A stretch of DNA of 42,284 bases, taken from NCBI GenBank assembly GCA_017465545.1, contig JAFTVY010000058.1:1-42284 (forward strand), in the 5' to 3' direction. Origin of the DNA: Ruminiclostridium sp. (GTDB taxonomy: Bacteria > Bacillota > Clostridia > Oscillospirales > Ruminococcaceae). Below the pieces are notes generated by a model. That model saw only the letters and a list, made by a program, of their open reading frames with translations. It had not been told where the DNA came from and did not search any database. Positions 3,217 through 36,021 of the stretch are shown here, piece after piece. Every line of letters begins with the position of its first letter. Position 1 is the first letter of the stretch. Made by a program: the position numbers and the translations under genes.

Positions 3217-3378
3217 GAAATCATGCTATGCACGATGAAATCCTCACTCCGTTCGGATGAAATCTTCGGCTGAGCCTCAGATGAAATTAAATCCACCCAT
3301 CCGCCGTCGAGGCGGATTTCATCTTCGCAGGAGATTTCATCGTCGAAGACGATTTCACCTACCCGAAGGGAGGATTTA
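3217..3378. repeat. Compound palindromic repeat (GATGAAATC / GATTTCATC)
   Basis: GATGAAAT(C) occurs four times on the plus strand in the left half. Its reverse complement, GATTTCA(T)C, occurs three times in the right half. The outer arms AAATCCTC and GAGGATTT also pair. The block could fold into one large branched hairpin and looks like an intergenic REP- or MITE-like element. No coding potential is believable here. Confidence 0.7.
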
Positions 3379-3382
3379 GTTG

Positions 3383-3660: not shown

Positions 3661-3747
3661 TGGTGCAGGTGACGGGACTTGAACCCACACGACCTTGCGA
3701 TCACTAGCACCTGAAGCTAGCGCGTCTGCCAATTCCGCCACACCTGC
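3661..3747 (-). tRNA. tRNA-Leu (anticodon CAG)
   Basis: An 87-nt class II tRNA with encoded CCA. The acceptor GCAGGTG pairs with CACCTGC and the discriminator is A. The D-arm is GGCGGAATTGGCAGAC-like. The anticodon stem CTAGC/GCTAG encloses loop TTCAGGT, giving anticodon CAG for CUG codons. There is a long variable arm and a standard GGGTTCAAGTCCC T-arm. It is a single gene with its own promoter and terminator. Confidence 0.97.
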
Positions 3748-30786: not shown

Positions 30787-30818
30787 GGGAGAGCCTTGCG
30801 GCTCTCCCGCTTTTTTTA
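30787..30818 (+). terminator. Terminator of sigma operon 3
   Basis: GGGAGAGCC, TTGC, GGCTCTCCC, then GC and seven T's. It separates the sigma operon from the RNA array. Confidence 0.92.
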
Positions 30819-30837
30819 TTTTCGCAGCTTTTTTTCC

Positions 30838-30866
30838 GTGAAAAAATATTTCCTGTGATGTAAAAT
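30838..30866 (+). promoter_or_regulatory. Candidate promoter of the RNA array
   Basis: GTGAAA (30838-30843, four of six matches), 17 bp and TAAAAT (30861-30866). Transcription would start near 30873, about five nt before the first RNA unit. No other terminator or promoter of equal quality is seen before the DUF2828 gene. Confidence 0.5.
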
Positions 30867-30877
30867 AAGAACATCGA

Positions 30878-30954
30878 AAGACACGTACAGCAAACTTTCC
30901 TACCAACAACGCATGAGACTGAAAATCTCTGAGCGATATTTAAACGTGTCTTGT
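30878..30954 (+). ncRNA. tRNA-mimic array, unit 1 (Phe-like anticodon arm)
   Basis: The closing stem AAGACACGT (30878-30886) pairs over 9 bp with ACGTGTCTT (30944-30952), and GT follows. ACAGCAA begins at once (30887). The cargo carries GAGA-CTGAAAA-TCTC (30915-30929), a 7-nt loop identical to a tRNA-Phe anticodon loop with GAA at 30921-30923. An outer CGC/GCG extends that arm. There is no D- or T-arm and no CCA, so it cannot be a tRNA. Confidence 0.72.
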
Positions 30955-30955
30955 A

Positions 30956-30999
30956 AGGGTGCATACAGCAAAATCTATATGTTATGATCAGCACCCTGT
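30956..30999 (+). ncRNA. tRNA-mimic array, unit 2 (minimal)
   Basis: AGGGTGC (30956-30962) pairs with GCACCCT (30991-30997), then GT. ACAGCAA starts at 30965, 9 nt after the first stem base. The cargo is only about 20 nt, A/T-rich and without a clear arm. This is the shortest unit and may represent the bare scaffold. Confidence 0.6.
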
Positions 31000-31009
31000 T
31001 ATTATTGCA

Positions 31010-31116
31010 AAGATGCCGCCAGCAGTCATAGAAGTACATGATTCGCTTGAAAAAAGCACTTACCCTGACGTAAGCTATAACGGGTGAAAATCCCGTATCA
31101 TGAAACGGCATCTTGT
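31010..31116 (+). ncRNA. tRNA-mimic array, unit 3 (cloverleaf-like cargo)
   Basis: AAGATGCCG (31010-31018) pairs with CGGCATCTT (31106-31114), then GT. The motif variant CCAGCAG lies at 31019-31025. The cargo folds as CATGAT/ATCATG (31037-31042, 31097-31102) enclosing three hairpins: GCTT/AAGC (31045-31057), CTTAC/GTAAG (31059-31074) and ACGGG/CCCGT (31080-31096). The last has loop TGAAAAT, reminiscent of a Phe anticodon arm with one base lost. The whole looks like a cloverleaf inside the scaffold. Confidence 0.65.
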
Positions 31117-31130
31117 ATTTTTTTCAGCCA

Positions 31131-31210
31131 AAGATGCAAGCAGCAAAAAAGTCACTGGATTAACATATCGGCGGGCTCATACCCCGAAATGAAAGACAAT
31201 GGCATCTTGT
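31131..31210 (+). ncRNA. tRNA-mimic array, unit 4 (Met-like anticodon arm)
   Basis: AAGATGC (31131-31137) pairs with GCATCTT (31202-31208), then GT. The motif variant GCAGCAA starts at 31140, 9 nt after the first stem base. The cargo has CGGG-CTCATAC-CCCG (31172-31186), close to the initiator/elongator Met anticodon arm, with CAT at 31178-31180. GTC/GAC may pair around it. The stem shares AAGATGC with unit 3, so the two could swap partners. Confidence 0.68.
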
Positions 31211-31279
31211 GTGTCGGTAGCTCAGCGGCAGAGTGGGGACGAAATCCCCGTGAGGTGAGTTCGACTCTCACCCGACACA
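31211..31279 (+). ncRNA. tRNA-mimic array, unit 5: complete cloverleaf with a 5-nt anticodon loop
   Basis: The acceptor GTGTCGG/CCGACAC (7 bp; an eighth T-A pair is possible) is followed by TA. The D-arm is GCTC-AGCGGCA-GAGT, the anticodon-position arm GGGGA-CGAAA-TCCCC, the variable loop has 5 nt, and the T-arm is GTGAG-TTCGACT-CTCAC. The 3' end is AGGC, not CCA. The anticodon loop has 5 nt instead of 7, so normal decoding is excluded. Unit 5 lacks the CAGCA scaffold motif. It could be a degenerate tRNA or a purpose-made mimic. Confidence 0.7.
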
Positions 31280-31284
31280 GGCAA

Positions 31285-31380
31285 AAGGCACTTACAGCAA
31301 TTATTATAGCTTTGTGGTTAAAGAGAAGGGACAAAGTCCCTTCCTCGTGAGTTCGAATCTCACCTATTAAAGTGCCTTGT
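31285..31380 (+). ncRNA. tRNA-mimic array, unit 6 (D/anticodon/T-arm mimic in the scaffold)
   Basis: AAGGCACTT (31285-31293) pairs over 9 bp with AAGTGCCTT (31370-31378), then GT. ACAGCAA follows at 31294. The cargo has a D-like CTTT/AAAG, a long GAAGGGA/TCCCTTC arm with loop CAAAG (31325-31343), and the T-arm GTGAG-TTCGAAT-CTCAC (31347-31363). The T-stem is identical to that of unit 5. It ends 7 nt before the ribosome site of the DUF2828 gene. Confidence 0.7.
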
Positions 31381-31401
31381 GAATACGAAAGGAGAAAAAG
31401 T

Positions 31402-32895
31402 ATGTTAAACTACTTAAAAAACGAAGCGAATAAAACCTATACCGAAAACGGTGCGGTAGCCTACAGCTCAACACAGTCCAACTGTCTTGATCTGTTTGCG
31501 TCTATAGGCGCTATGCGTAATGCAAGCGACAAGGATATTATATCTGCCTTTGTAAAGGCTTATACCGAAAACAGAAGGCTTGCCCTTAAGACTCTCTTCT
31601 ATGCAAGAGACGTCCGTGGTGGTCTCGGTGAGCGCAGAGTCTTCCGTACTATCCTCAGATGGCTTGCGGATAACGATGAGCTTGCTATTGTAAGAAATAT
31701 CGAAAATATCGCCGAGTACGGCAGATTTGACGACGTACTGTCTCTTTTCGGCACCCGTGCCGAAAAGGTGATGCTGGGATACATAAGAGTAGCGCTCAAC
31801 AGGGATATTGAGGCTATGAAGAGAGGCACAGAGGTGTCTCTTCTCGGCAAGTGGCTTCCTTCTGTAAATGCTTCCTCCTCTGATACGAGAAGAAAAGCGA
31901 AGATTATTGCAAAAAAACTCGGTATGAAGGATGAGCAGTACAGACGTCTGTTGTCCGAGCTTCGTCGCAGAATAAGAATAATTGAAAATAACCTTCGTGA
32001 AAGGGACTACACCTTTGACTATTCCGCTCAGCCCTCAAAGGCTATGCTGAAATACCATAAGGCGTTTGTCCGCAATGACAGGGAACGCTATACCCAGTTC
32101 CTTTCGAGAGTGGAAAATGGTGAAGCAAAGCTCAATGCCGATACCCTTATGCCCTACGAGCTTGTACATCCCTACATAAATGGTTACTGGTCGGGCGACT
32201 GCTTTATGAGAAGCATTTCCGAAGAGGAAAAGCGTGTGCTTAATGCCACCTGGGGTTCTCTTCCCGTATACGATACGGATGAGGACGTGCTTCCCGTAAT
32301 AGATACCTCCGGCTCAATGTACTGGGCGGTGTGTCCCTCTCCCGCTTCCGTAGCGCTGTCCCTTGGACTGTACTTTGCGGAGCACAACAAGGGTGCTTTC
32401 AGAAATCACTTCATAGAGTTTTCAGGTGAGCCTCAGCTCATTGAAATAAAGGGCGACACCTTTGCCGACAGACTCAGATACGTGGCGACCTTCAACGAGA
32501 TTGCCGACACCAATCTCGAAGCGGTGTTCTCGCTCATCCTTGATACAGCTGTCAAGAACGGACTGAAGCAGGATAGTCTGCCAAAAAAACTTCTCATCGT
32601 TTCCGATATGGAATTCAATTCCTGCGTAAGTGGTGCGGATGAGAGCGTTTTCGAGAATGCGAAAAGACGCTTTGCAGAAAAGGGCTACATACTTCCCGAA
32701 GTTATATTCTGGAACGTAGCCTGCAGAAATCTCCACCAGCCCGTTACAAAAAACGAACTGGGCGTGTGCCTTGTTTCAGGCTGTACTCCGAGATTATTTT
32801 CGGCGGTAGTCGATAATAAGCTCTCCGAGCTTACTCCCTACAAGGTGATGCTGGAGATTCTCGGCAGCGAGCGTTATGATGCCGTTGTCGCATAA
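31402..32895 (+). CDS. DUF2828 / TROVE-like protein with C-terminal vWA domain
   Basis: A 497-residue protein. Residues 1-~280 form an alpha-helical region with the hallmark YARDVRGGLGER (about 68-78), as in DUF2828 and the TROVE domain of Ro60. The C-terminal vWA domain has a complete MIDAS: D301-T-S303-G-S305, T370 and D402 (VSDMEF). Ro60/Rsr binds Y RNAs and misfolded RNAs through TROVE. By analogy this protein may bind the tRNA-like units encoded directly upstream; that link is inference. ATG 31402 follows AAAGGAG; an earlier in-frame ATG (31372) lies inside unit 6. A terminator follows. Confidence 0.85.
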   Translation: MLNYLKNEANKTYTENGAVAYSSTQSNCLDLFASIGAMRNASDKDIISAFVKAYTENRRLALKTLFYARDVRGGLGERRVFRTILRWLADNDELAIVRNIENIAEYGRFDDVLSLFGTRAEKVMLGYIRVALNRDIEAMKRGTEVSLLGKWLPSVNASSSDTRRKAKIIAKKLGMKDEQYRRLLSELRRRIRIIENNLRERDYTFDYSAQPSKAMLKYHKAFVRNDRERYTQFLSRVENGEAKLNADTLMPYELVHPYINGYWSGDCFMRSISEEEKRVLNATWGSLPVYDTDEDVLPVIDTSGSMYWAVCPSPASVALSLGLYFAEHNKGAFRNHFIEFSGEPQLIEIKGDTFADRLRYVATFNEIADTNLEAVFSLILDTAVKNGLKQDSLPKKLLIVSDMEFNSCVSGADESVFENAKRRFAEKGYILPEVIFWNVACRNLHQPVTKNELGVCLVSGCTPRLFSAVVDNKLSELTPYKVMLEILGSERYDAVVA

Positions 32896-32939: not shown

Positions 32940-33848
32940 CTATAGGTTGAATTCTGCCTGCCTTTTCAGCCTTTCTATAATAAGCTCCCTGAAGTGCTGT
33001 GGCTCTGTTACCTCTACAAGAGGTCCGAAGCTCAGTATTCTTATAACAAGCTCCGTTTCATCATCTTTGTCATAGACGATATGTACCATATAGTTCATAT
33101 CGTCGATTTTTTCTGCCCGCTTTTCAAAGTGTGCAAAATGCAGAAGACATCTTTCAAGAGCGTTTCTCCTATCGGTGATTCGCAGAGTGACCATCCTGCT
33201 TTTGCTCTCTTCTTTTTTGGAAAATGAAAAATCCTTCTCCTTACTTTCCTTACAGCTGATTATTCTTGCAAGATTTATAGTATCGTAATTGCCCTTGCCG
33301 ATACCTATAAGTCGCATTTTATCATCCTTTTCGGAATATTCCAGCCTTTCAGGTAGTATAGTGACGGATATTTCGTCACCCTTTCTGTTAAGCATTCTTA
33401 TATCAAGGGGAGTTTTGCTTTTCACGGCGGAAAGAATAGTCCTGAAGCGCTCTATATAGCCTTCATCGGTAAAATCATCCCCGTCTGAATATCTGTCGTA
33501 TATAACGTAATCATCCGGTGTGAATAAAGGCTCCGTATCAGGAAAAAGATTATCATAATCTCCGAAAAGCCTTATCCTCGGATCCATAAAAACCGCCTTC
33601 AGCCAGCTTTTTTCTATATTTGTAAGCGGCATTGTGGGACTGTGCTTTATAGGGGTAGTCATATTGCTTTTCATAAGCTGCCATTTCTCGCTTTTTAAGG
33701 AGGGCAGAACTGTCAGCATACTTTCGCCAAAGGCTTTTTCGCTGACTATCTCGGATAATCTATTTTCATTTTTTTCACCATTTATAAGCTCTCTTATTAT
33801 CTTTGCAACGGCGTTATAATAGGCGGAATATAATTCACTGAATATCAT
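32940..33848 (-). CDS. WYL-domain protein (second of pair)
   Basis: A 302-residue protein. The N-terminal ~100 residues are helical and may hold a divergent winged helix. The WYL-type beta domain (about 125-200: PLDIRMLNRKGDEISVTILPERLEYSEKDDKMRLIGIG) is followed by a WCX-like C-terminal domain (about 215-300). WYL domains sense nucleic acid or nucleotide ligands in regulators such as PafBC and DriD. The ATG at 33848 overlaps the upstream gene's stop as TGATG, so the two WYL proteins are coupled and may form a heterodimer. Confidence 0.82.
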   Translation of the reverse strand: MIFSELYSAYYNAVAKIIRELINGEKNENRLSEIVSEKAFGESMLTVLPSLKSEKWQLMKSNMTTPIKHSPTMPLTNIEKSWLKAVFMDPRIRLFGDYDNLFPDTEPLFTPDDYVIYDRYSDGDDFTDEGYIERFRTILSAVKSKTPLDIRMLNRKGDEISVTILPERLEYSEKDDKMRLIGIGKGNYDTINLARIISCKESKEKDFSFSKKEESKSRMVTLRITDRRNALERCLLHFAHFEKRAEKIDDMNYMVHIVYDKDDETELVIRILSFGPLVEVTEPQHFRELIIERLKRQAEFNL

Positions 33849-35098
33849 CACTCTGCCTCCTCTATGCCGTAAAGTCCGCACATTCTCTTTATATCGTCCT
33901 TAAAACGCTGCTGTGTCTCCTGAGATTCAAAATGTATATCCTTTATCCTGCAGATAAAGGTTCTTATCCAGGGGATAAGCTCGTTTTCATCATAAACTTC
34001 AGCAGAAAAGCGGTAGGTGTTTTCATCTATTTTTTCGACCTTGCCCGTTCTCTTTTCTCTTTCGAGCCTTCGTATTATATGCTTTTCGTCCTCTCCTACG
34101 TGAACGGTAAATTCAATATGATGGGTTTCTTCGTTGCTCAGAGTAGTTTTACCTGCATTTACACCCCACATATTTTCCTGCATTCTCTTAAGCTCGTTTC
34201 TTAATTCGTCATAGCGGGGAGTGGGATTTTCTATCCTTATATCCGACAGATAGTCTATGCGGTAGGATCTTATAGAATTCCATTCCATATGGTAGCATAA
34301 AAGATGTTGTCTGCCGTTTTGTGCGCTTATGAATATCTTTAAGGGGATTACTCTTATAGTTATCGGAGTATCATTCCTACGACTTAAATTCGTCATAGTA
34401 ATGACCGATTTCTGCCTGATAGCCATAAACAGCTTTGCTAAAACGTCGCTGTCTATTGCGCTTGTTATGTAATGATGCTTGAAGCTGAAAATATCGTTTT
34501 CTTTTTCCGTCTTGTCAAGGAGAAAGGAGCCGATAACTCCGCAGGGCGCAGTTTCGGAAAAGAAATTAAGAATATCCGTAATATCAGAAAGCTCCTCGTC
34601 ATAAGCTCTGCTATAAAGCATTTTTTTGCCCTGCTTTTCGGCGGTGATAATGCCAAGCTCCGTGTACTCCTTCAGTTTTTTTCTGACTGTGGATTCGTCA
34701 AATACCATATGCTGTGAAAATCCGGAAAGGTATATATCTATCTGCTCTAAAATTTCGGGTAGTGAAAGATGAATATCAGGTGAATGAAGAATATCAAAAA
34801 GTATGAAATGAAGAGTAATATCCTTATCGGTAAAGCTCTTTGCTTTAAGCGTTCTGAAAAAGGGATTATGCTCTATCCTGCGACTGTCTATCGAGATAAA
34901 GACGTTTTTTCCCTCGCTTGTACGGTCAAAGCGCATATGACTCTGAAGCCAGCTTTCTATTCTGCGCCTTTCGTCATCATAGGAACGGGCGCTCTTTTTG
35001 TTATATTCACTTCTGTTTTTAAAGCCGTAGATATAGAATTCTCTCATATAGCTACGCACCTTTTCATAGTTCTTGATAAGCTCGCTGAACTCAGACAT
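33848..35098 (-). CDS. WYL-domain transcriptional regulator (first of pair)
   Basis: A 416-residue protein. A winged-helix DNA-binding part (about 95-170, with DESTVRKKLKEYTELGIITAEKQGKKMLYS) precedes a WYL domain (about 220-315, SVITMTNLSRRNDTPITIRVIPLKIFISAQNGRQHLLCYH) and a WCX C-terminus. An extra helical stretch occupies residues 1-90. It lies 66 nt after the ADP-ribosylglycohydrolase gene with no terminator between, and overlaps the second WYL gene. It probably controls this operon or the convergent RNA-array/DUF2828 unit; which one is not shown by sequence. Confidence 0.87.
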   Translation of the reverse strand: MSEFSELIKNYEKVRSYMREFYIYGFKNRSEYNKKSARSYDDERRRIESWLQSHMRFDRTSEGKNVFISIDSRRIEHNPFFRTLKAKSFTDKDITLHFILFDILHSPDIHLSLPEILEQIDIYLSGFSQHMVFDESTVRKKLKEYTELGIITAEKQGKKMLYSRAYDEELSDITDILNFFSETAPCGVIGSFLLDKTEKENDIFSFKHHYITSAIDSDVLAKLFMAIRQKSVITMTNLSRRNDTPITIRVIPLKIFISAQNGRQHLLCYHMEWNSIRSYRIDYLSDIRIENPTPRYDELRNELKRMQENMWGVNAGKTTLSNEETHHIEFTVHVGEDEKHIIRRLEREKRTGKVEKIDENTYRFSAEVYDENELIPWIRTFICRIKDIHFESQETQQRFKDDIKRMCGLYGIEEAE

Positions 35099-35163: not shown

Positions 35164-35973
35164 TTAATCAGTTATGTATTTTTCGCAGAATTCTCTTGCC
35201 GTCTTTTTTAAGGAACTGTCCAGACGGCTTTCACAAAAGCGGCGTATATGATCGGGTATCTCCTTATAGAAAGCTTCCGCAATACCTCCTGCAATACAAG
35301 CCTCGGTATCTGCGTCGCCTCCGAGGGATACGGCATTTCTTACTGCGCTTTCATAATCAGTAGATTCAAGAAAGGCAATTATTGCAGATGGCACGCTATA
35401 GGATGTGCGGCTGTCAAATATATGCTTTTCTCTTATCTGTGAAAGCGGTATTGATAAATCATATCCGTGATTCTTTTCAATGTACTCCTTTATTTCTTCT
35501 TTGCTTTTTCCTTTTCTTGCAAGAAAAACCGCCATAGCTACAGCACCTGCGCCGTTTATGGCTTCCTTGTGTTTATGAGTGGGCATACAGCTTGCCTTCA
35601 CCTGCAATAGCACCTGCTCTTCTGTGCTATAGGCATAGCCTATAGGGATAACTCGCATTGCACCGCCGTTACCGTAGCTTTTAATATTTCCCAAATCGTG
35701 ATTCCTTGCCCATTTTGAAAACATATTTCCGAAGCCTGCGCCGGGAAAGCAGGAATAATAGTGCCTGTACATAGCGGCATATTCCTTTGCTCTTTTTCTT
35801 AAACCAAGCTTTTTTATATCATCAGGAAAATTCAGAATAGCCTTGCATACTGCAATTGTCAGAACGCTGTCATCGGTAAAGTGACTTTCTTTATTCAGCG
35901 GAAAATCATAGTCCTTTGTACAATGTACCTCGTAATATGAGCCTATAATATCTCCGTAAATAGCTCCCAGCAT
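35164..35973 (-). CDS. ADP-ribosylglycohydrolase (DraG/ARH family)
   Basis: A 269-residue all-alpha dinuclear-Mg enzyme that removes ADP-ribose from proteins, nucleic acids or small molecules. Metal ligands are visible at T33-D34-D35 (HFTDDSVLT) and D220, D222 and T223 (GGDADTEACIAGGIAEAF). The GDIIGS start and GGAMRVIPIG are family hallmarks. ATG 35973 is chosen because AGAGGTGAT precedes it and the promoter at 35993-36021 would lie inside a longer version. It is the first gene of a three-gene operon with two WYL regulators. The target is unknown; a link to ADP-ribosylated RNA or tRNA is speculation. Confidence 0.9.
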   Translation of the reverse strand: MLGAIYGDIIGSYYEVHCTKDYDFPLNKESHFTDDSVLTIAVCKAILNFPDDIKKLGLRKRAKEYAAMYRHYYSCFPGAGFGNMFSKWARNHDLGNIKSYGNGGAMRVIPIGYAYSTEEQVLLQVKASCMPTHKHKEAINGAGAVAMAVFLARKGKSKEEIKEYIEKNHGYDLSIPLSQIREKHIFDSRTSYSVPSAIIAFLESTDYESAVRNAVSLGGDADTEACIAGGIAEAFYKEIPDHIRRFCESRLDSSLKKTAREFCEKYITD

Positions 35974-35992
35974 AGAATCACCTCTTATAACC

Positions 35993-36021
35993 ATTTTACC
36001 ACCTTACGTCCGATTAGTCAA
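35993..36021 (-). promoter_or_regulatory. Promoter of the ADP-ribosylglycohydrolase/WYL operon
   Basis: On the minus strand TTGACT (36021-36016), 17 bp and TAAAAT (35998-35993). The -35 lies inside direct repeat copy 1 (36012-36037). Confidence 0.75.

Follow-up and report, generated by a model that had tools for sequence, protein, structure and literature searches.

Tandem RNA units with a common handle and tRNA-like interiors accompany DUF2828 genes in gut bacteria and phages: a candidate Y RNA-like system

We analysed a 42,284-nt stretch of Ruminiclostridium sp. DNA (assembly GCA_017465545.1, contig JAFTVY010000058.1, positions 1 to 42,284; hereafter the window), in which a tandem array of structured RNA units lies directly upstream of a DUF2828 gene. 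A preliminary description had claimed at least six consecutive structured units between a promoter and a TROVE-like gene, and six units are indeed present at 30877-31379. The proposed order of promoter, array and gene also stood, with mended bounds: the promoter element begins at 30821 and the start codon lies at 31402. Five of the six units share a common handle, consisting of a 7-9 bp stem with an AAGRYRY-like 5' arm followed by ACAGCAA or a near variant; the common scaffold proposed earlier therefore holds for all units except unit 5 (U5), which lacks it. The features of the array and its gene are as follows.

30787..30817, + strand: terminator-like hairpin and T-run of the preceding gene, read from the sequence as GGGAGAGCC TTGC GGCTCTCCC GCTTTTTTT
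30821..30841, + strand: conserved 21-base promoter element TTCGCAGCTTTTTTTCCGTGA, perfect match
30861..30866, + strand: -10-like hexamer TAAAAT, 19 nt past the promoter element
30877..30953, + strand: unit 1 (U1), handle stem, ACAGCAA, hairpin loop CTGAAAA (GAA anticodon)
30955..30998, + strand: unit 2 (U2), short, stem AGGGTGC/GCACCCT with ACAGCAA, 3' end CCTG and not CTTG
31009..31115, + strand: unit 3 (U3), handle stem, CCAGCAG, several hairpins including a TGAAAAT T-loop-like arm
31130..31209, + strand: unit 4 (U4), handle stem, GCAGCAA, hairpin loop CTCATAC (CAU anticodon)
31210..31280, + strand: U5, free-standing tRNA mimic, full cloverleaf, loop ACGAAAT (C33), without handle or encoded CCA
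31284..31379, + strand: unit 6 (U6), handle stem, ACAGCAA, near-complete tRNA-like interior, T-loop TTCGAAT
31388..31394, + strand: ribosome-binding site AAAGGAG, directly past U6, read from the sequence
31402..32895, + strand: DUF2828-DUF7788 gene by Pfam (Ro-like, vWA with the D-S-S of DTSGS), 497 amino acids

A covariance model of the handle (R1), built solely from loci other than the window, recovered U1, U2, U4 and U6 (32.2, 27.6, 24.9 and 38.5 bits, respectively; window matches taken at E <= 1). U3 was found by the unit scan described below and was not recovered by R1 at that limit. The 3' arm ends in CTTG in four of the five handled units and in CCTG in U2. ARAGORN called U5 as tRNA-Phe, and the Rfam tRNA model, whose gathering score is 29 bits, gave 40.5 bits for U5 and 22.8 bits for U6; an Rfam search of the whole window at gathering scores reported neither. 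The fold z-scores from U1 to U6 were -2.07, -2.44, -3.68, -2.09, -2.81 and -4.90. Because these values alone are modest, we relied on covariation and linkage.

DUF2828 loci were sampled from family genomes (39 of 396 carry the gene), from a genome-contig scan (49 loci) and from viruses (13 loci), for a total of 92, and the removal of three duplicates left 89 distinct loci, 76 cellular and 13 viral. Upstream of these genes, over 3300 nt in nine loci and over 1500 nt in all others, we looked for the motif CAGCA(A/G) accompanied by a stem of 6 bp or more, keeping candidates that scored above a threshold. The scan yielded 225 units in 140,678 bases, well beyond chance: a coding control of 124,435 bases gave 5, and the upstream sequence itself gave 1 after dinucleotide shuffling. 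Units were found in 71 of the 89 loci (69 of the 76 cellular ones), numbering from one to nine per locus, with the consensus AAGRYRYNN-ACAGCAA-(interior of 19 to >100 nt)-RYRYCTTG.

The preliminary description had made its proposal depend on conservation of the stems in homologous loci, and covariation shows that they are conserved. When units were picked by their 5' motif and by the final [CT]TTG ahead of the following unit, pairing not being used for the choice, all four variable pairs formed in 136 of 196 units; permuting the 3' arms lowered this number to a mean of 51 (maximum 64 of 2000), and permuting them within loci to 77 (maximum 96). In an alignment of 41 of the 55 short units (A2), five of the seven stem pairs change on both sides, a result that is partly circular as these units were chosen with pairing required. 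Furthermore, among 2.9 million viral contigs the pattern AAAGRCACNNACAGCAR..GTGYCTTG was found in 105 stretches and its version with compensated arms (TGC/GCA) in 16, while mismatched arms (CAC/GCA) gave 0 and matched arms with ACAGCA changed to AACGCA likewise gave 0. These counts indicate constraint on the pairing of the stem as well as on the letters ACAGCA. Chance folding as the source of the units was rejected on the strength of covariation and linkage. As a handle search, the single pattern AAGRYRCNNACAGCAR was discarded as too loose, since it matches 146 of the 396 genomes.

The proposed linkage to DUF2828 in other genomes, for which a covariance-model search had been suggested, was borne out. 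At E <= 0.001, R1 matched 29 of the 396 family genomes, that is, 27 of the 39 with a DUF2828 gene and 2 of the 357 without. With the identifiable training genomes removed, the counts were 16 of 28 versus 2 of 357 (Fisher 5e-19), where the removal covers those bearing G handles and some training rows from genome contigs may be the same genomes renamed. Both matches in DUF2828-negative genomes look false by eye: the one in G146 resembles an ABC-transporter coding region, and the single one in G383 reads ACAGCGG and not ACAGCA(A/G). Among DUF2828-positive genomes, one weak match, on contig C24 of G237, is not near the gene, and in G298 the matches on contig C12 are on a contig other than the gene's. 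In the latter genome, units stand near the end of C12 (L125), by an RtcB match, and near an end of C425 (L029), and the contig end seems to have split one array.

The linkage also extends to phages. Of the 105 viral stretches found by the RNA pattern alone, 57 encode DUF2828, in all 57 cases on the same strand; 80 stretches have a tRNA gene and 69 have three or more (42, 61 and 51, respectively, when the first 80 stretches are taken alone). Over 93 pattern stretches, namely the first 80 plus 13 with compensated arms, we counted 213 units on the pattern strand and 6 on the opposite one, about one unit per stretch being on the pattern strand by selection. Searches of the whole records, covering the 37 records behind the 38 DUF2828-less stretches among the first 80, found DUF2828 elsewhere in 15 of the 37. 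A partnership of the handle RNA with TROVE was considered and rejected, TROVE being present in 0 of these 37 records.

The variable interiors enclosed by the handle often resemble parts of tRNAs. A T-arm with the loop TTCRANY occurs in 41 of the 225 interiors (0.3 expected from shuffles) and a TGARANY arm in 8 (0.3 expected), whereas a canonical anticodon-loop hairpin, counted with T-loops masked, occurs in 73 (13.9 expected); at least one of the three is present in 103 interiors (14.4 expected). Some units carry a T-arm without an anticodon arm. In 17 of the 225 interiors the loop is identical to an anticodon loop of the tRNAs of the window's genome (0.56 expected), namely Ser-UGA, Lys-UUU, Arg-UCU, Glu-UUC, Met-CAU, Leu-UAA and Thr-GGU. 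Distinct interiors of 15 to 45 nt, too short for a tRNA gene, were tested apart: native loops were found in 6 of 91 cellular ones (0.1 expected, maximum 1) and in 20 of 126 phage ones (0.28 expected, maximum 2), of which 11 are Lys-UUU. Two or more different loops are displayed in 24 of the 47 loci that have anticodon hairpins. The phage T-arm count (27 of 213) is inflated by units that enclose real tRNA genes and falls to 0 of 126 for interiors of up to 45 nt; we therefore make no claim of T-arms in phage units.

We also considered that the units might be functional tRNA genes and rejected this, as U5 has neither U33 nor an encoded CCA and most units do not close in the manner of a tRNA. In the window's genome, ARAGORN identified 30 tRNAs, 29 of which have an encoded CCA. 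The units are probably non-coding. Comparing the window with locus L032, whose DUF2828 protein is 81% identical, we found the same order of units and differing loops in units 5 and 6.

The gene downstream of the array had been described as a TROVE-like DUF2828-vWA gene. The DUF2828 assignment stood and the vWA part matches a TROVE/Ro60 profile, but the protein does not belong to the TROVE family by Pfam: the window protein has no match to PF05731, and TROVE was absent among the 25 of 28 families listed for 36 DUF2828 proteins at E <= 10. These proteins form alignment A1, from which L090 (stops in translation) and, by choice, L086 and L087 were excluded and into which other loci were not entered. 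Aligned by hhalign with four TROVE proteins, they gave 93.2% (E 3e-7) over 194 columns, mainly in vWA, and with two TROVE proteins 17.7% (E 0.0014); one DUF2828 member matches vWA_Ro60 at E 0.016. The term Ro-like thus appears, by profile comparison, to hold for the vWA half of the protein. No TROVE gene was found in the window's own genome and no TROVE relative in the viral scan, and a PDB profile search gave no credible relative by sequence, the only match being to a ribosomal protein (E 0.58). Our literature searches turned up no stated function for DUF2828.

In bacteria, the array and its gene are associated with RNA repair genes and with a pair of regulators, which in the window are encoded downstream of DUF2828 as follows.

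32940..33881, - strand: WCX/WYL-type regulator (Pfam WCX), 50% identical to WYL2 of the L045 operon
33848..35098, - strand: WYL-domain regulator (Pfam WYL), 56% identical to WYL1 of the L045 operon

With queries pooled from L045, L036 and the window, and with flanks of at most 1.5 kb for the first 30 loci, a homolog of the RNA ligase RtcB was found in the flanks of 50 of the 89 loci, WYL1 in 42 and WYL2 in 40. Gene orders include WYL-WYL-array-DUF2828-rtcB (L036) and WYL-WYL-array-rtcB-DUF2828 (L045). At the level of family genomes, a single RtcB query matched 29 of the 39 DUF2828-positive and 75 of the 357 negative ones (Fisher 4e-11). The array-adjacent RtcB of the Ruminococcus flavefaciens group (L070:3062-4306) is divergent, scoring about 120-135 bits to the L045 type, which implies that two RtcB types pair with this system. 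As a side observation, ADP-ribosylglycohydrolase genes lie near the WYL pair in the window (35164-35994) and in L036 (501-2306), where the enzyme is fused to SseB and Macro domains; they are present in only 2 of the 89 loci and are perhaps part of a wider damage-response island. Elsewhere in the window, a Gut-1 RNA (RF01706, 51.5 bits) lies at 3311-3382 on the - strand, close to a tRNA-Leu at 3664-3747.

In the window's genome, rtcB is on a different contig from the array and is preceded by the same promoter element; the 2.6-Mb genome holds exactly two TTCGCAGCTTTTTTTCCGTGA-type elements at up to three mismatches (with 0 and 1), one before the array and one before rtcB, both followed by TAAAAT 19 nt on, and a backward control pattern gave one match in this genome. 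Within the window, the single match is the one before the array, and 100 shuffles gave none. Across the 89 loci, 41 copies were found in 35 loci at up to three mismatches, all on the + strand (0.013 expected under uniform base composition), and in 32 of the 41 the best -10-like hexamer lies exactly 19 nt on. Another 23 DUF2828-positive genomes gave the element in 14, in 17 places. Copies also stand before WYL1 in L045 and L034, and the two WYL proteins may bind the promoter element (TTCGCARCTTTTTTTCCGTGA). A further copy lies about 110 nt downstream of DUF2828 in L047 (6577-6597), possibly marking another regulon member.

A tblastn search found DUF2828 in 681 of 50,697 phage records, some of them naming it 'Ro-like RNA binding protein' or 'RNA-binding protein'. 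We looked closely at 14 phage and two plasmid (L178, L186) regions. At E <= 0.005, R1 matched phages of Bacillus (L179, L191), Enterococcus (L180, L190), Listeria (L182), Staphylococcus (L187), Campylobacter (L192) and Mycobacterium (L185, L193), as well as L181. Matches were weaker (E 0.09-0.8) in the Klebsiella (L188) and Escherichia (L183) phages and absent, at the limits used, from the Vibrio (L184) and Aeromonas (L189) phage regions. Of the 13 initial viral loci, five (L081, L082, L083, L088, L092) have a match at E <= 0.002. In several phages the DUF2828 gene lies in or beside a tRNA cluster; in L179 and L191 the units stand among tRNA genes up to about 3 kb from DUF2828, and in Bacillus phage FADO three units stand amid tRNA genes. 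In the Staphylococcus phage and in both Mycobacterium phages the units lie downstream of the gene. Listeria phage A511, an exception among phages as regards RtcB, has tRNAs, DUF2828 and RtcB inside 9.5 kb.

Two further phage regions deserve mention. In Escherichia phage EC6, about 3 kb past DUF2828 are without annotated genes (L183:5539-8620), and ARAGORN gives 18 tRNA genes in this interval, some of them separated by ACAGCAA motifs. In Mycobacterium phage Enceladus, a band-7-like gene lies close to DUF2828 (L185:2194-3072). The Ro-like protein gp53 of phage LeBron would be a DUF2828 protein, judging by other L-cluster phages (L185, L193). Its overexpression is toxic to mycobacteria, and the accessible part of that report names no RNA partner for it (PMC13148394).

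Taken together, the common handle and the diverse tRNA-mimic heads are what would be expected of a multi-RNA ribonucleoprotein (RNP), and thus support this reading as put forward in the preliminary description, which had not foreseen RtcB, the two WYL regulators, the shared promoter element, the native anticodon loops or the many phages. We think it rather probable that the array and its protein form a Y-RNA-like RNP family that deals with tRNA damage, in which the mimics serve as baits or adaptors. The array would be made as one transcript with the message of its protein and cut into small RNAs, whose constant part (the basal stem with ACAGCAA) may serve as the binding site of the DUF2828-vWA protein, by analogy with Ro60 on the basal stem of Y RNA. 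The variable part often seems to imitate features of tRNAs, from anticodon stem-loops with native loops and T-arms to almost whole tRNAs. In bacteria, these RNPs would belong to an RNA-repair regulon that includes the ligase RtcB and is probably activated by the two WYL regulators; those of phages would lie near tRNA clusters, mostly without RtcB close by. The mimics may be baits or competitors for tRNA-cutting enzymes such as anticodon nucleases, and/or adaptors through which tRNA-specific enzymes or broken tRNAs reach the Ro-like protein and RtcB. Many anticodon nucleases are metal-independent. Metal-independent RNases are described as leaving the ends that RtcB joins (PMC7824862).

The presence of native anticodon loops on short hairpins suggests the involvement of enzymes that recognise such loops. 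Worded at its most specific, the proposal is that of a genome-encoded library of anticodon decoys, which we put forward tentatively, as a serious possibility short of an even chance: through one handle for the Ro-like protein, the loops of many host tRNAs (in cells Phe, Asp, Met, Ser, Arg, Lys, Glu and others; in phages Lys-UUU, Ser and Asp) would be displayed, anticodon nucleases soaked up or baited and, where RtcB is present, cut RNAs resealed, for self-protection in bacteria and counter-defence in large phages. Competition of the tRNA-like domain of YrlA with an anticodon nuclease was an idea raised by Hughes et al., in whose report, as far as its accessible part goes, Salmonella YrlA was not cut by the nuclease that accompanies operon activation and gave no YrlA fragments (PMC7790460).

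The latter observation is one of several that weigh against a Y-RNA-like RNP family acting on tRNA damage. The unit scan found no unit in 18 of the 89 loci (one of which has just 82 upstream bases), R1 no match in 12 of the 39 DUF2828-positive genomes, and the whole-record searches no DUF2828 in 22 of the 37 records, some being fragments and others 175 to 278 kb long. Under strict rules, 122 of the 225 interiors show none of the three tRNA features, and the native-loop set was that of the tRNAs of one gut bacterium's genome, not of each phage's host. RtcB matches were missing in 10 of the 39 DUF2828-positive genomes and in all 105 phage pattern stretches, and neither RtcB nor WYL was matched in any of the 13 initial viral loci. 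The promoter element was not found in 54 of the 89 loci, for instance in the Ruminococcus flavefaciens group. Moreover, the array would also be compatible with a role as a leader controlling the mRNA.

Several other explanations were weighed. The heads could be tethers or adaptors and not decoys, recruiting enzymes that process, modify or degrade tRNAs to the Ro-like protein and shifting the substrate choice of these enzymes, as YrlA does with PNPase. The identical architecture of YrlA, a basal stem for the Ro protein with a tRNA-like head (PMC8394870), and the units with a T-arm and no anticodon arm favour this reading, which we nevertheless find doubtful, as the heads differ widely within one array and a set of short units shows only an anticodon stem-loop with a native loop, needless for a single tethered enzyme. 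That the array is a cis-acting leader, whose units would be titration sites through which the protein represses or stabilises its own operon mRNA, is unlikely. It would agree with the single promoter match in the window, before the array, and with the spacing of 14-55 nt that, in 45 of 71 loci, separates the last unit from the beginning of the gene match, but where rtcB comes first it is rtcB that the array precedes, and the window has no credible match to a T-box or other Rfam cis-regulatory element; T-box or another known leader was accordingly rejected as an identity of the array. In addition, phage units lie after the gene (L187, L185, L193) or amid tRNA genes about 3 kb off (L179, L191), which favours trans-acting RNAs over a purely cis-acting leader.

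Cutting of the mimics by tRNases could also yield ends or fragments that activate the WYL regulators, making the array the trigger of the regulon. The WYL genes in the locus flanks (WYL1 in 42 and WYL2 in 40 of 89), the promoter element before WYL1 in L045 and L034, and the regulation of the Salmonella rtc operon by damaged tRNAs, as reported in PMC7790460, speak for such a damage sensor; given that no WYL match was found in the 13 initial viral loci, we hold it to be quite improbable. Finally, the units might be decayed tRNA genes, the functionless leftovers of a phage tRNA cluster, as the position of several phage DUF2828 genes in or beside such clusters could suggest. This would be very hard to reconcile with a handle stem that covaries across units and loci and belongs to no tRNA, or with the unit order kept between the window and L032, and we regard it as exceedingly improbable.

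Of the known systems, the closest is Ro60 (Rsr) with YrlA in the rsr-yrlBA-rtcBA operon, which likewise brings together, within one operon or regulon linked to tRNA damage, a Ro-like protein with a vWA domain, small RNAs whose basal stem carries a tRNA-like head, and RtcB, as far as described in PMC7790460 and PMC8394870. The tRNA-like head that marks Y RNA-type molecules is found in units here. Unlike in the Rsr system, the protein is DUF2828-DUF7788 and not TROVE by Pfam, each locus has one to nine different units, and WYL regulators are nearby; and where YrlA imitates the D, T and acceptor arms, some heads here consist of an anticodon stem-loop with a native loop. The YrlA and Y_RNA models of Rfam gave no match in the window at gathering score or in 30830-31420 at E <= 10. 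By the tests made, then, the system works like Ro60 with Y RNA but is not a member of the TROVE or Rfam Y RNA families.

A second likeness is to phage tRNA clusters that counter anticodon nucleases, in or near which phage DUF2828 genes and handle RNAs often lie. The phage tRNAs proposed for this role in PMC10264068 are, in the accessible part of that work, real tRNAs with changes in the anticodon loop. Unlike the tRNAs of such clusters, the units end in CTTG and not CCA, have a common handle and are often just a short hairpin. By way of analogy, and not as a claim of family, the array also recalls those of CRISPR in having a constant part and variable payloads in tandem, apparently under one promoter, but here what stays constant is a stem that covaries and encloses every unit, and the payloads are structured and often mimic parts of tRNAs. 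If the decoy library were true, exchange would renew its payloads in the manner of CRISPR spacers. In 2016, Burroughs and Aravind reportedly proposed a 'novel tRNA-like molecule', tied to Band-7 proteins, as the partner of a scaffold for RNA repair. We found no description of the array or the handle in the literature, earlier mention being possible (e.g. Burroughs and Aravind 2016, Sim 2020, Chen 2014).

Altogether, the occurrence of these arrays in gut bacteria and in many large phages points to an RNA-protein system for coping with tRNA damage, of which we found no description. The DUF2828 family gains a candidate RNA partner, and the idea of Ro60 and Y RNA may also cover a second family of proteins, one that has a recognisable RNA handle of its own and arrays with many different heads. 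The handle pattern is simple enough for searching any genome or small-RNA dataset. Likewise, a testable role is offered for the non-tRNA RNAs in phage tRNA clusters, together with a link to tRNA-targeting immunity.

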